This document shows, in pieces, positions 16,203 through 21,452 of a stretch of 35,929 nucleotides of DNA (position 1 is the first letter of the stretch; each line of letters begins with the position of its first letter). The DNA is taken from contig JBCCIM010000043.1 in assembly GCA_039111535.1 (NCBI GenBank), positions 1 through 35,929 of the forward strand, in the 5' to 3' direction. A model generated the notes under the pieces. It was not told where the DNA came from. It searched no databases and saw nothing but the letters and a program-made list of their open reading frames with translations. The translations under genes and the position numbers were made by a program. This DNA comes from Bacteroidota bacterium. GTDB taxonomy: Bacteria > Bacteroidota > Rhodothermia > Rhodothermales > JAHQVL01.

Positions 16203-16281
16203 TGTAACGATAGTATGTTCAGATTGTACACATATTCGTAACAAGTTGTGTACGACCCGCACAGATTCAAGCAAGCCTGAT

Positions 16282-16947
16282 ATGCCAAAATCATTAGCAA
16301 AGAAAAATCGCAAGCGTAGCCCTCGTAAAACGGCCCCCCATAGCCATTACGAGATGCTCGTTGATATGAGCGATGAGGACTTAATGTCCTTTTTCCAGGC
16401 AGGAACCGTAGAGGCTTTTGACCTGCTCGTAAGCAGATACAAAGATCCGCTTACGAATTATATTTATCGCTTCCTCGGTGACATGAAGGAGTGCGAAGAT
16501 CTGCTGCAAGAAACGTTTCTCCGCGTTTACCGCAACCGCCATTCTTATCGGCGCATTGCGAAGTTTTCGACCTGGTTGTATACCATTGCAGGTAACCTTG
16601 CGCGGTCTGAATACCGCAAACGCAAGCGCCGCCGGCTCTACTCCTTGCAGTCTGTCAACCGCGATGAAGAAGAGTTCGAGGTAGAGATTCCAGATGAAAC
16701 ATTCTCTCCGGACAGGCATACCGAGAGTACCATCCAAGATTATTATATTCAGGAAGCGCTCAAACAAATACCTGAAGAATTCCGAGAAGTAGTTGTTCTA
16801 CGTGATGTACAGCAGCTTGCTTATGAGGAAATCGCCGAAATCACCGGATTGCCTATGGGCACGGTCAAGAGTCGAATCAATCGTGGTCGAACGAAACTTC
16901 AGGCGCTTCTCAAGGATGTGTATTCACCCCATCCCATGGGGCACTAA
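16282..16947 (+). CDS. ECF-type RNA polymerase sigma factor
   Basis: 221 residues from the ATG at 16282; an in-frame alternative start at 16246 adds 12 residues. A basic N-terminal tail of about 25 residues (KKNRKRSPRK) precedes region 2. Region 2 contains FDLLVSRYKDPLTNYIYRFL and CEDLLQETFLRVYRN and ends with FSTWLYTIAGNLARSEYRKR. An acidic linker follows, then region 4 with IPEEFREVVVLRDVQQL and the helix-turn-helix YEEIAEITGLPMGTVKSRINRGR. No regions 1 or 3 are present, which defines the ECF group. It probably directs an envelope or stress regulon under control of the next gene, a putative membrane anti-sigma factor 133 bases downstream. The basic N-terminal extension is a little unusual. 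Confidence 0.93.
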   Translation: MPKSLAKKNRKRSPRKTAPHSHYEMLVDMSDEDLMSFFQAGTVEAFDLLVSRYKDPLTNYIYRFLGDMKECEDLLQETFLRVYRNRHSYRRIAKFSTWLYTIAGNLARSEYRKRKRRRLYSLQSVNRDEEEFEVEIPDETFSPDRHTESTIQDYYIQEALKQIPEEFREVVVLRDVQQLAYEEIAEITGLPMGTVKSRINRGRTKLQALLKDVYSPHPMGH

Positions 16948-17080
16948 TCGACCAGTATTGACCGCCGGGATTTGAAAAAACCCTGATGGGACGCAAAAAG
17001 GAGCTCACTTCCTTATTTGTTTTTCCCATGTGCGATTTCTTGGAATTGATTCTTGATTCTGGAATCAGCTTCGTACAGAT

Positions 17081-17713
17081 ATGGCCGACGGATACAAAAA
17101 TCCTGGGGAGCAAGACTTCACCGACCTCGACGAGTGGTTGTGTGAATACGTGGACGGTACTATCGATCCCGTTGTTTGTGAAGCCCTGGAAGAATACATG
17201 CAACACAACGAAGCGCTCGCATCTCATGTAGAGCGACTTCGCGAAGCACGCCACCTGCTTTGCCAGTATGGTTGCAGCTATCAGGCCCCTAGCGGATTAC
17301 AACCGCGCCTTCGCCGCCGCCTGGCTACCGAAATTGTACAGGAAGCCCAACCTTTTATGGGCCTCTCCAGCACACACCTCATGACGCTGGCCACCGTTAC
17401 CTCTGTTGTTGCAATTATGCTCATTTTTGGCTCCTCGCGAACTACAGGAAACGCCACGCTAGCCGGCAACGCCACGCCAGCCATGGCCATCCAGGAAGCG
17501 CCGCGGCAGCACCATGGCGCAGCCGCTATTGTGCCCCATAACCGCGTAACACCTGTACGCACGCTGGCCACCAACAAATTCTACTCTAAATTTACCCACA
17601 AGCGGGCTTTCAGCCACGCCCACGCTACAGCAACATATGCAATCCAGGCCAACAGCCGGCCACATACCTTACACGTAACACCTACGATTGCAGATAGTCG
17701 AATGGCCCCATAA
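17081..17713 (+). CDS. Putative membrane-bound anti-sigma factor
   Basis: 210 residues with one membrane segment at about 99-117. The N-terminal part has the general layout of anti-sigma domains (LDEWLCEYVDGTIDPVVCEALEEYM at 16-40, then paired helices). However, the His-x3-Cys-x2-Cys zinc motif of the ZAS family is not present. The C-terminal part (118-210) is Thr/Ala/His-rich, with a short internal repeat GNATLAGNATPA, and would be periplasmic. Position right after the ECF sigma gene is the main reason for the call; the ATG start has no Shine-Dalgarno sequence. An intrinsic terminator follows 88 bases after its stop, closing the pair. It could instead be an unrelated single-pass protein. Confidence 0.65.
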   Translation: MADGYKNPGEQDFTDLDEWLCEYVDGTIDPVVCEALEEYMQHNEALASHVERLREARHLLCQYGCSYQAPSGLQPRLRRRLATEIVQEAQPFMGLSSTHLMTLATVTSVVAIMLIFGSSRTTGNATLAGNATPAMAIQEAPRQHHGAAAIVPHNRVTPVRTLATNKFYSKFTHKRAFSHAHATATYAIQANSRPHTLHVTPTIADSRMAP

Positions 17714-17800
17714 CGCCCCGGCAACATCCCCGCCTCGCTGGTATTTCCCTTGACATTGGGAGCACTGTAACGTACTATTCCCGCCTGCAATGTATTGACG

Positions 17801-17828
17801 AGCCCATCCTCTCTGGTTGGGCTTTTTT
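17801..17828 (+). terminator. Intrinsic terminator after the sigma/anti-sigma pair
   Basis: agccca (17801-17806) pairs with tgggct (17818-17823), with one mismatch and two further pairs inside. The stem is followed by an unbroken run of six T (17823-17828). It separates the sigma/anti-sigma pair from the BioD-like gene. Confidence 0.8.
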
Positions 17829-17921
17829 CATTTTTCATTCAGGCTTCAGCAAGTAAAGCAGAATTTGCTTTGCTTTTTTACTTACCATCTTTATTCTGGT
17901 GATCATCAGGCAGGTCATACC

Positions 17922-18632
17922 ATGGCAGATGGACTCTTCATTGTAGGTACAGATCGTGACGTAGGCAAAACCTTCGTGGGCGTAGGTATTGTGGGCCTGC
18001 TCCGGGAAATGGGTGTCGACGCTACGCTAATGACCCCAATATCTACAGGCGGCTCAGTTGACAGCGCCACAGAGCTACTCAAGCAAATTGGCGTAGAAGA
18101 ACCCAAACGCCTGGTAAGCCCCATCTCTTTTGAAACGCTCGCCTCACCATACGCTGCCAGCCAGGTTGAACGCATTGAAATCAAACTGGCCAAAATCTGG
18201 GACGCGTACAACGAGCTCAAAGCCAAAGGAAAATTTGTCGTCATTGAAGGCGGTGGCCTAATGGTACCGATCACCCGGAATTATGCAGTAGCCGACCTCC
18301 TGAAAGATTTCGATTTGCCGGCGGTCATCCTGGGCAAAACAGCTCGAGGCACGCTAAATCACTGTATTCTTACGTTACGCATGATGCTGGTCATGGGCCT
18401 GCACCCCAGGGGCTTTATTCTCAACGGATTTGGACAGTACGGCGAAGGTTTTGCTGAAGCATTGAACCCCGATGTATTAGAGGAACTGGAAGCACCACTA
18501 AAGGTACTGGCTACTATTGAATGGAGACCTGAGTACCCCGGTAATATACAAGCTTTCATCCGTGCCCTCCGCCAGCACGAAGGCTTGTTATCTTTACTTA
18601 AAGATCTAACCGATACTACTATGAATTTATAG
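17922..18632 (+). CDS. BioD-like P-loop protein (divergent dethiobiotin synthase homologue)
   Basis: 236 residues from the ATG at 17922; a longer in-frame start at 17817 would read through terminator DNA. The fold is that of BioD, which closes the ureido ring of dethiobiotin using ATP and CO2. The P-loop GTDRDVGKT is at 9-17 with K16. Also present are SPYAASQVE near 82-90, VIEGGGLMVPI, and a conserved ILGKTARGTLNH segment. The lysine of the usual KPxxTG motif (E. coli K37) is replaced by Thr: residues 37-42 read MTPIST. This residue helps bind the substrate, so true dethiobiotin synthesis is doubtful. No other biotin gene is in the window. The MEMO-like gene follows after 50 bases on the same strand. 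Confidence 0.75.
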   Translation: MADGLFIVGTDRDVGKTFVGVGIVGLLREMGVDATLMTPISTGGSVDSATELLKQIGVEEPKRLVSPISFETLASPYAASQVERIEIKLAKIWDAYNELKAKGKFVVIEGGGLMVPITRNYAVADLLKDFDLPAVILGKTARGTLNHCILTLRMMLVMGLHPRGFILNGFGQYGEGFAEALNPDVLEELEAPLKVLATIEWRPEYPGNIQAFIRALRQHEGLLSLLKDLTDTTMNL

Positions 18633-18668
18633 TGTGATGCACCCATCACACATTTATCTGTCAAACAT

Positions 18669-18676
18669 AAGGAAGG
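18669..18676 (+). promoter_or_regulatory. Strong Shine-Dalgarno sequence before the MEMO-like gene
   Basis: aaggaagg lies 6 bases before the ATG at 18683. It stands out because nearly every other gene in this window starts without any purine-rich ribosome binding site. Confidence 0.6.
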
Positions 18677-18682
18677 TAGGGT

Positions 18683-19456
18683 ATGGAAATACTGGATTCT
18701 TCGATCTACGCAACGCAACCGCTCCCCCTGCAAAAACAGCTTAAGACACTGTTGAGCGAATCCTCCCAGTATCCTGTAGAAGACGAAATTCTCGGGATCA
18801 TCGTGCCGGACAGCAACCTGCTGAGCGGCGGCCCAGTTGCTGCCAATGTGTTTAAAACCATTGCCGGCAAGTCATATGACACTGTTGTCATCGTTTCATC
18901 GAGCCACACCGGGCCCTTTAAACGTATGACAATTTGCAACCTGAACTCTTATCGCACCCCACTTGGCGACGTCCCGATCAACGAGAAAGTATGCCATGAA
19001 CTCTGCGATGAAGACGACGACATTTATCTCGACGACCAGGGCCATTTTCACAACAAAGGGATAGACGTTCAACTCCCTTTCTTACAAACTGCACTGGATG
19101 ATTTTGACATTGTCCCGATTGTAATGGGAGAAGAATCTCCTGAATTCTGCAAAGAACTGGGCGCTGCCATAGGAGAAATCATGTTCAACCGTAAAACGCT
19201 TGTTGTCGCTTCGGTGGATGTGCTTTCGTCTACACAGGAAGAACTCGAAAAATTCCAAACCCTGTTTGAGTCGAGTAACACCCGGGACCTCATTCCTATG
19301 CTGAATCGCCAGGACATGGCGCTTCAAGGCCGTGGGCCGCTGCTTGTAGCCATGCTTGCTGCGCAACACCGCAATGCGAGACGTTTTCAGGTGCTGGAAC
19401 TCAAACAGCCTGAAAACTCGAACCCCGGCTGGATTGGCGCATACATCAGTAAATAA
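18683..19456 (+). CDS. MEMO-family protein (AmmeMemoRadiSam B-like) with degenerate metal site
   Basis: 257 residues with the backbone of the MEMO family, a relative of class III extradiol dioxygenases. Recognisable parts are ILGIIVPDSNLLSGGPVAANVF (36-57), VVIVSSSHTGPF (68-79), YRTPLGDVPIN, GIDVQLPFLQ (126-135), IVPIVMGEE and GRGPLLVAML. Several key residues are changed: the first His of the PHAGY motif is D43; the EH before the QLPF strand is N124-K125; the SDxxH motif reads VDVLSS (178-183); and the Cys before the GxGP turn is Q215. Only H75 of the usual set remains. It is probably not a normal metal enzyme. The radical-SAM and AMMECR1 partner genes are not nearby. A strong Shine-Dalgarno sequence precedes it, and a BioD-like gene lies just upstream. 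Confidence 0.8.
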   Translation: MEILDSSIYATQPLPLQKQLKTLLSESSQYPVEDEILGIIVPDSNLLSGGPVAANVFKTIAGKSYDTVVIVSSSHTGPFKRMTICNLNSYRTPLGDVPINEKVCHELCDEDDDIYLDDQGHFHNKGIDVQLPFLQTALDDFDIVPIVMGEESPEFCKELGAAIGEIMFNRKTLVVASVDVLSSTQEELEKFQTLFESSNTRDLIPMLNRQDMALQGRGPLLVAMLAAQHRNARRFQVLELKQPENSNPGWIGAYISK

Positions 19457-19511: not shown

Positions 19512-20423
19512 TTGCATAAACAGCAAAAACCTCTTCCCCACGACCATGGCCGGCAAACCGGCATCATGATCGTGGGGACCGGCGCTGTAGGCACTACATT
19601 GGCCCTCAGCTTGCAAGCCAAAGACTATACCATCTCAGCGATTGCAAGTCGCTCAAAAGCGCGTGCCCAACAGCTGGCAACTCATGTAGGAGCGCCTGCA
19701 GCTGTTGCCCTTTCTAGCCTCGATCCAGCGCAAGCACAACTCATTTTCCTCTGTGTACCCGACGACGTTCTTCCCGAAATTGCAGACAAACTGGCAAATC
19801 ATACCCAGTGGGCAGGTAGAATAGTGGCGCATACCTCAGGGGCACAAACGGCATCTATCCTGCTCCCGTTGCAAAAAGCAGGGGCCTATGCAATGAGCTT
19901 TCACCCCGTCCAAACCTTCGTAAAACCATCAAAAAATGCGTTTTCTGGTATTTATGTAGGTATTGAGGGGGACGAGCCGGCAGTCAGTGAAGGCATAGTA
20001 TTGGCACAGGCTTTGGATGCAACCCCGCTTGTGTTACAAGCTGCCGATAAAGCGCGGTACCACCTTGCCGCATCAATAGCCTCAAACTTCACTGTTACCC
20101 TTGTTTCAGCAGCATGTGACGTACTGGAATCCATAGGTATGCAGCGCGATGAAGCAGTTGCTTTGCTGAGACCTCTCGTAATGCAGACGTGTACAAACGT
20201 AACAACCCGCTTGCCCGAAGAAGTACTCACCGGACCAGCCGCACGAGGTGACAAAAACACCCTCCAACAACACCTCGATGCACTAGAAAACCACCAACCG
20301 CACCTGCTACCCCTATACCGCGCGTTGCTCGCGCAAACCGTTGAATTAGCTAAACGAGGCGCAACAAGCCCTGATGCAAAAAAACAACTGGATGAGATGC
20401 ACAGCAGCTTGCAGCCTGAATAA
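19512..20423 (+). CDS. Rossmann-fold and DUF2520 domain protein
   Basis: 303 residues if the TTG at 19512 is used, or 285 from the ATG at 19566, which lies only a few residues before the dinucleotide motif GTGAVGTT. I keep the longer form because the ATG version begins inside the first beta strand, but this is open. The N-terminal half is an NAD(P)-binding Rossmann domain resembling ketopantoate/pyrroline-5-carboxylate reductase types (LIFLCVPDDVLPEIADKLA, HTSGAQ, SFHPVQTF). The C-terminal half is an all-helical DUF2520-type domain (HLAASIASNFTVTLVSAA, LTGPAARGD). The substrate is unknown. A long hairpin covers the ATG at 19566. It sits in a plus-strand run from the BioD-like gene to lysS. 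Confidence 0.8.
   Translation: MHKQQKPLPHDHGRQTGIMIVGTGAVGTTLALSLQAKDYTISAIASRSKARAQQLATHVGAPAAVALSSLDPAQAQLIFLCVPDDVLPEIADKLANHTQWAGRIVAHTSGAQTASILLPLQKAGAYAMSFHPVQTFVKPSKNAFSGIYVGIEGDEPAVSEGIVLAQALDATPLVLQAADKARYHLAASIASNFTVTLVSAACDVLESIGMQRDEAVALLRPLVMQTCTNVTTRLPEEVLTGPAARGDKNTLQQHLDALENHQPHLLPLYRALLAQTVELAKRGATSPDAKKQLDEMHSSLQPE
19536..19577 (+). other. Hairpin covering a possible start codon
   Basis: ccccacga (19536-19543) pairs with 19570-19577. After one mismatch, ccatg... (19545-19548) pairs with 19565-19568, and gccgg (19549-19553) pairs with 19558-19562 around a caaa loop. This gives about 17 paired bases in total. The ATG at 19566 is inside the stem. No T-tract follows, so it is not a terminator. 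Confidence 0.55.
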
Positions 20424-20502
20424 CCCACACAAGACAACCTACTACAAACAACCTACTGCACCCACTACAGACCACTATTCTTGAACGATACACCAGGTAG
20501 TG

Positions 20503-21018
20503 ATGTATTTACTCCGTACTGAACGTGTAGTCCTCAATCCCGCCGCACTGGCAATAGATTTTACAACAACCAAAAAGCTCGACGCCCTTTTCGAGCGTGA
20601 AAATACAGCCTCCATCGCCTTCCAATCCGTACTTGTTGCCGCCATACAGATTCTCGAGCGCGTTCGGGAAGAAGAAATTGCAGTTTCAAAAGCGGCAATA
20701 TCCCTCGCACACCGCGAGCAAATGTCGCACATGCTTGCATCCACGGACTCAATGACAAAGTCTCTACGTGACGCGCTCAATGACCAGGGGTCTCGCATCC
20801 TTGACCTGCAACCGCGCGATATGGGCAAAGACGATGGCTCAAATTCGTGGTGGTTTTGCCTTGCAAAAGCCATCGAAACATTAAATGCCGGCAGAGATTG
20901 GATAAATCAGATTGTTTCCGGCCAGCACAAAGATAGCCCCTCCAGATCGCTGGCAACCATTGTTGCCCAGTTTCTGGAAACACACCACACCCAACTGGAT
21001 GACGAAATTCGCTGCTAA
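20503..21018 (+). CDS. Uncharacterised soluble helical protein
   Basis: 171 residues from the ATG at 20503; a GTG directly before it (20500) is an equal choice. The sequence is mostly helical and polar, with no membrane segment or signal peptide and no motif I can name. Notable parts are FERENTASIAFQSVLVAAIQILERVREEEIA and NSWWFCLAKAIETLNAGRDWI. It lies 79 bases after the DUF2520 gene and 53 before the next unknown gene, in the same direction. Function unknown. Confidence 0.65.
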   Translation: MYLLRTERVVLNPAALAIDFTTTKKLDALFERENTASIAFQSVLVAAIQILERVREEEIAVSKAAISLAHREQMSHMLASTDSMTKSLRDALNDQGSRILDLQPRDMGKDDGSNSWWFCLAKAIETLNAGRDWINQIVSGQHKDSPSRSLATIVAQFLETHHTQLDDEIRC

Positions 21019-21071: not shown

Positions 21072-21452
21072 ATGCCGTCTAACATTGATGAACTGTTATC
21101 AATAGAGCATACGGTACTGGAATCACGGTGGCAGGTGTTGCTAGCCTGGCTAGAAGATCATTTTGGTCGCCAGGCAGGCATTGAGTCTATCTTGTTTCTT
21201 ATCGGCATTCAATCCCAGGAACGCGGCTACGAACCCAAGCTGTCTAAAAAGAAAAAGCAGGCCCTGATTATGGAAGGGACACACTGCGCTTTTGAAACAC
21301 TTGGCCTTTATAGACGTGTCGGTAAAGATTCAAATGGACAGATCGTTTGGGAAAGAACGGAAATACCCCTCAAAAAACTTCCGCTTCCTGAACAGGAAAA
21401 ATTGTTACGTGTTGCCATTCTGTCCTACTTTGACAAGCTCAACAACGGATAG
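21072..21452 (+). CDS. Uncharacterised conserved-looking small protein
   Basis: 126 residues, soluble, with a helical N-terminal half (VLESRWQVLLAWLEDHFG, IESILFLIGIQSQERG), a lysine run (LSKKKKQALIMEG) and a C-terminal helix (PEQEKLLRVAILSYFDKL). The size, even composition and lack of overlap with other frames suggest a real gene. It resembles small hypothetical proteins I associate with Bacteroidota relatives, but I cannot name a family. It ends 25 bases before the cyclophilin lipoprotein gene and is probably co-transcribed with it. Confidence 0.65.
   Translation: MPSNIDELLSIEHTVLESRWQVLLAWLEDHFGRQAGIESILFLIGIQSQERGYEPKLSKKKKQALIMEGTHCAFETLGLYRRVGKDSNGQIVWERTEIPLKKLPLPEQEKLLRVAILSYFDKLNNG

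Follow-up and report, generated by a model that had tools for sequence, protein, structure and literature searches.

A BioD-like gene, a degenerate MEMO-like gene and a gene for a DUF2520 oxidoreductase follow one another on the forward strand of the 35,929-nucleotide Bacteroidota stretch analyzed here (the window), and this combination of an altered BioD, an altered MEMO and a reductase is an undescribed three-gene unit. Our literature search found nothing describing a BioD–MEMO or a MEMO–DUF2520 pair. We favor, at slightly less than even odds (roughly 0.45), the reading that this is a conserved trio found in Rhodothermales and in a few Bacteroidota besides, in which repurposed BioD-like and MEMO-like proteins serve the DUF2520 reductase as accessories.

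The locus and its conservation

The features of the locus are as follows.

17790–17878, + strand: two terminator-like hairpins with T-runs, 5' of the BioD-like gene
17922–18632, + strand: BioD-like P-loop protein, 236 residues (TIGR00347, PF13500, alignments, AF2 model)
18632–18651, no strand: perfect 8-bp palindrome, GTGTGATG-CACC-CATCACAC, between the BioD-like and MEMO-like genes
18683–19456, + strand: degenerate MEMO-like protein, 257 residues (TIGR04336, PF01875, residue counts)
19512–20423, + strand: DUF2520/Rossmann oxidoreductase, third gene of the module (PF10728, PF10727), with an alternative ATG start at 19566

The open reading frames place the MEMO-like gene 50 bases after the BioD-like gene on the same strand, as the first-pass annotation had stated. 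The terminator it had placed upstream is matched by the two hairpins, the first with its T-run at ~17800–17828 (−15.5 kcal/mol, z −1.8) and the second at 17851–17875, which make a separate transcript starting near the BioD-like gene plausible. The palindrome between the two genes is a possible operator or hairpin, and it resembles a pair of CRP-type half-sites spaced 8 bases apart. As a general operator it was rejected, since it occurs once in the window and has no room in a relative (L072) whose BioD–MEMO gap is only 6 bases. We note that an ECF sigma factor and a putative anti-sigma factor lie directly 5' of the module (16246–17713), an arrangement also seen in G001, G002, G009 and G020. Searches for defense systems (PADLOC) and RNA families (Rfam) gave no match.

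Close BioD-like homologues occur in 10 of the 99 genomes of the order (the nine others 54–78% identical), in a sampling of one genome per species with many drafts, such that absences in incomplete genomes are soft. Two genomes from the class (G113, G164), one from the phylum (G350) and a locus from a named MAG (L077) complete a set of 14. Twelve of these carry BioD-like, MEMO and DUF2520 genes in that order, with gaps mostly of 1–84 bases and 134 at most. In G020 and G027, the BioD-like gene is followed directly by DUF2520 with no MEMO between, and in G023 the end of the contig cuts MEMO short, and another contig carries a MEMO tail and then DUF2520. In fact, DUF2520 lies 3' of the BioD-like gene, with or without an intervening MEMO, in all 13 readable loci.

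The trio is kept in three different chromosomal settings. Within Rhodothermales, holA and the sigma and anti-sigma genes lie upstream and lysS downstream; in G113 the flanks are what we read from sequence as dapB-, priA- and recO-like genes, and in G350 what we likewise take to be sugar-nucleotide and TPR-like genes. Because the flanks differ between settings, the linkage is more than shared gene order. The reading that the three genes are neighbors merely through inherited gene order and do not work together draws on the synteny of the whole holA–lysS stretch within Rhodothermales and on the frequent absence of BioD, but must contend with these three settings, with the short gaps and with a MEMO–DUF2520 adjacency that recurs in families f21 and f40; we consider it quite unlikely.

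The three genes differ in constancy. Among the 99 genomes of the order, DUF2520 is found in 72 and MEMO in 39 (three divergent), against 10 with the BioD-like gene, making DUF2520 the commonest and the BioD-like gene the least constant of the three. MEMO beside DUF2520 without BioD, seen in about two dozen inspected loci, is far commoner than the trio. Beyond the order, a degenerate MEMO is followed by a DUF2520-like reading frame in three genomes of f21 and in one of f40 (G445, DUF2520 recognized by eye); in three further f40 genomes, the 1.5 kb examined showed no DUF2520 beside MEMO. Since the MEMO–DUF2520 pair without BioD is this common and extends to further families of the phylum, the reductase is likely the core of the module, and the BioD-like protein, absent from most genomes with the pair, is dispensable. 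A pattern scan outside Bacteroidota gave one weak match (L079), with no module partners found beside it.

The first-pass annotation had proposed that the BioD-like and MEMO-like proteins form a two-protein module, perhaps an ATP-driven switch. The linkage on which this rested holds, with the two genes adjacent in 12 of 14 carriers and in all three settings, but the constant partner is DUF2520, and MEMO–DUF2520 usually stands without BioD. We regard such a switch as unlikely: the adjacency holds in 12 of the 14 carriers and the P-loop is kept in 12 of the 14 proteins, yet two members have lost its lysine, two carriers have DUF2520 in the absence of MEMO, and the MEMO–DUF2520 pair is common without a BioD-like gene.

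The BioD-like protein and the biotin pathway

The BioD-like protein scores 116 bits against the NCBIfam bioD profile TIGR00347, above its cut-off of 83.3, and 113 bits against PF13500. An AF2 model built from an 8-row alignment reached a pLDDT of 88 (40 from the single sequence), and its top structural matches are all dethiobiotin synthetases, with Z of 22–24 over 206–222 residues. The protein shares with BioD the fold, the P-loop (GTDRDVGKT, including K16, fitting GxxxxGKT), Glu109 (E. coli Glu115) and the GTLNH motif.

The active site is distinct from that of E. coli BioD, in which Lys37 and Thr11 lie at the substrate while Asp54 and Glu115 lie at the Mg. Alignment places Thr38 at Lys37 (LMTPISTG versus GYKPVASG), as the first-pass annotation had recognized together with the K16 P-loop, and Arg12 at Thr11, such that both the Lys of KPxxTG and the Thr are replaced. 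Compared with E. coli BioD, the Asp54 loop is shortened by 7 residues, with Ser48 in the Asp54 column and Asp47 adjoining, and the EGAGG of the E. coli enzyme becomes EGGG; Arg12, the shortened loop and EGGG were missing from the earlier description. The protein further carries two additional motifs, GFGQxGxGFAE..NP and EWRP.

These changes recur across genomes. Arginine occupies the Thr11 position in all 14 BioD-like members and threonine the Lys37 position in 13, while the most distant member, G350, keeps the lysine (MMKPISVG) in addition to the arginine. An aspartate at the Asp54 position is present in G113, G164 and G350 and lost within the order, where most members have an acidic residue one place away. 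The P-loop, Thr17 and Glu109 are conserved in most members, GTLNH is invariant within the order, and the P-loop lysine is glutamine in G030 and L077. Such conservation of the altered residues, seen in the MEMO-like protein as well (below), shows that they are not a matter of chance or sequencing error, and the pattern in the BioD-like protein looks like a stepwise loss, the acidic residue beside the lost aspartate notwithstanding. In an unrooted, small tree, the module BioDs form a clade apart from canonical BioDs with 98% bootstrap. We note that G030 (locus L011) and L077, the two with P-loop glutamine, are related genomes, and that in L011 the match to the query end crosses one TGA near the C terminus.

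The genomic context is not one of biotin synthesis. In the source genome (G000, 97.6% complete), the BioD-like gene is the sole PF13500 match, so that no canonical bioD stands elsewhere; of the other biotin genes, the search covered bioA and bioB, neither of which scores above cut-off. Of the 15 genomes tested, 14 have neither bioA nor bioB above cut-off, among them all ten carriers from the order; the single genome with both, G004, has a canonical BioD and no module. The best evidence that the two BioD forms have different jobs comes from G164 (KatS3mg041), which contains both: in addition to its module BioD, it has a canonical BioD (KPAETG) flanked by homologues of bioA and bioB and close to one of bioF, in a cluster ordered bioF-bioA-bioD-bioB. 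The bioF match rests on a reading frame beside bioB in G004 that we take to be BioF.

We therefore find it extremely unlikely that the BioD-like protein is a true dethiobiotin synthase that tolerates its changes. The score above the NCBIfam cut-off, the shared fold and its position as the only BioD in its genome speak for that identity, which was rejected in view of the missing bioA and bioB and of the separate canonical BioD in the KatS3mg041 biotin cluster; the replacement of Lys37 and Thr11 also counts against it. Repurposing, as first proposed, is supported by these absences, by a separate clade in which the residue changes are fixed and by the coexistence of a canonical BioD in KatS3mg041, and the gene has probably taken on a different role. 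Automatic annotation would nevertheless name it dethiobiotin synthase, as it lies above the equivalog cut-off, and so assign to its carriers a step of biotin synthesis, whose other tested genes are absent, a likely source of wrong pathway predictions.

What this role might be can be framed in two ways. First, the protein could still be an ATP-dependent enzyme, an N-carboxylase or ligase that has switched to a new substrate, with the charge of Lys37 provided by Arg12 and the DUF2520 protein acting on the product or a precursor in a small pathway. With the P-loop and Glu109 mostly intact, and with an arginine that could replace Lys37, such catalysis may persist; the conservation of Thr17 and the invariant GTLNH fit it too, and the invariant arginine, which coexists with lysine in G350, looks like a relocation of charge. 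Set against this are the glutamine at the P-loop lysine in two genomes, the shortened Asp54 loop and the lost metal site of the MEMO partner, and we hold a new-substrate enzyme to be possible, if rather doubtful. Second, in the reading we prefer, the protein would act as an accessory. A BioD fold without dethiobiotin synthesis is also known from the N-terminal domain of long phosphotransacetylases, which has a regulatory role. The BioD-like protein matches the corresponding profile (NF004167) weakly, at 29.6 bits, but unlike those enzymes it stands alone, with no Pta domain. A literature search on this domain returned nothing.

The MEMO-like protein

The MEMO-like protein matches TIGR04336 with 132 bits (cut-off 26) over nearly its full length and PF01875 with 125 bits, and hence shares the family profile of AmmeMemoRadiSam system protein B/MEMO1. 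In human MEMO1, H49, H81 and C244 hold iron, and either H49A or C244S abolishes binding (PMC11081632). Alignment to canonical MEMOs of the phylum (SPHAGY, PSHREYF, SSDLSHYH, EACGGGP) reveals Asp43 in place of His49, Ser in place of His192 and Gln215 in place of Cys244, while His81 alone is kept, as His75. The first-pass statement that the MEMO active site is altered is thereby borne out, and judged by these residues the metal site is gone. Of 31 module MEMO relatives, a single one retains His49 and none retains Cys244, and the family is marked by a new motif, ELCDEDDDI, together with DxGH. Membership in the AmmeMemoRadiSam system was rejected for lack of its AMMECR1 partner, which is absent from the source genome and from all 19 genomes tested. 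Separately, three loci (L148 in G358, L151 in G170 and L154 in G313) hold a degenerate MEMO with NELCDEDDD and no DUF2520 neighbor within 1.5 kb.

The DUF2520 reductase and a model for the module

The DUF2520 protein matches PF10728 with 116 bits and PF10727 with 68 bits and carries a Rossmann dinucleotide motif (GTGAVG, fitting GxGxxG). It shares this motif and its domain architecture with solved DUF2520 oxidoreductases (2i76, 3d1l), from which it differs in adjoining a degenerate MEMO and sometimes a BioD-like gene. As the only member of the module with an intact cofactor motif and the one with the widest distribution, this NAD(P)-type reductase is taken as the likely catalyst. In our preferred model, the BioD-like and MEMO-like proteins would have lost the reactions of the enzymes to which they are related and would probably serve as subunits that bind a ligand or provide a scaffold, with nucleotide binding usually retained in the former. 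It is unlikely that the BioD-like family as a whole hydrolyzes ATP, since two members lack the P-loop lysine. A physical complex, the loss of catalysis, the accessory role and the reductase substrate are alike inferred.

That substrate may be ketopantoate, whose reduction has been proposed for a DUF2520 protein (PMC4572677). The source genome has panB and lacks ApbA_C (panE); all 15 genomes tested have panB, whereas ApbA_C is found in only one of them, a weak hint that the DUF2520 reductase is possibly the missing ketopantoate reductase. However, G015 and G016 have panB and neither ApbA_C nor DUF2520, and IlvC can reduce ketopantoate in other bacteria (PMC11487621). Given these two genomes, pantoate may come from IlvC, and ketopantoate reduction need not be the task of DUF2520. 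A more specific version of the model, which we think improbable, would have the BioD and MEMO proteins, as pseudoenzymes of unrelated origin, form a complex with a DUF2520 ketopantoate reductase that places CoA synthesis under nucleotide-sensing control.

Across several Bacteroidota families, the module gives MEMO, a family that is poorly understood, a specific partner in the DUF2520 reductase, so that the function of both could be tested in a cultured relative. We also note two small proteins without a Pfam match 3' of the DUF2520 gene (20500–21018 and 21072–21452), both conserved in much of the order, in a stretch that extends as far as a peptidyl-prolyl isomerase and lysS.
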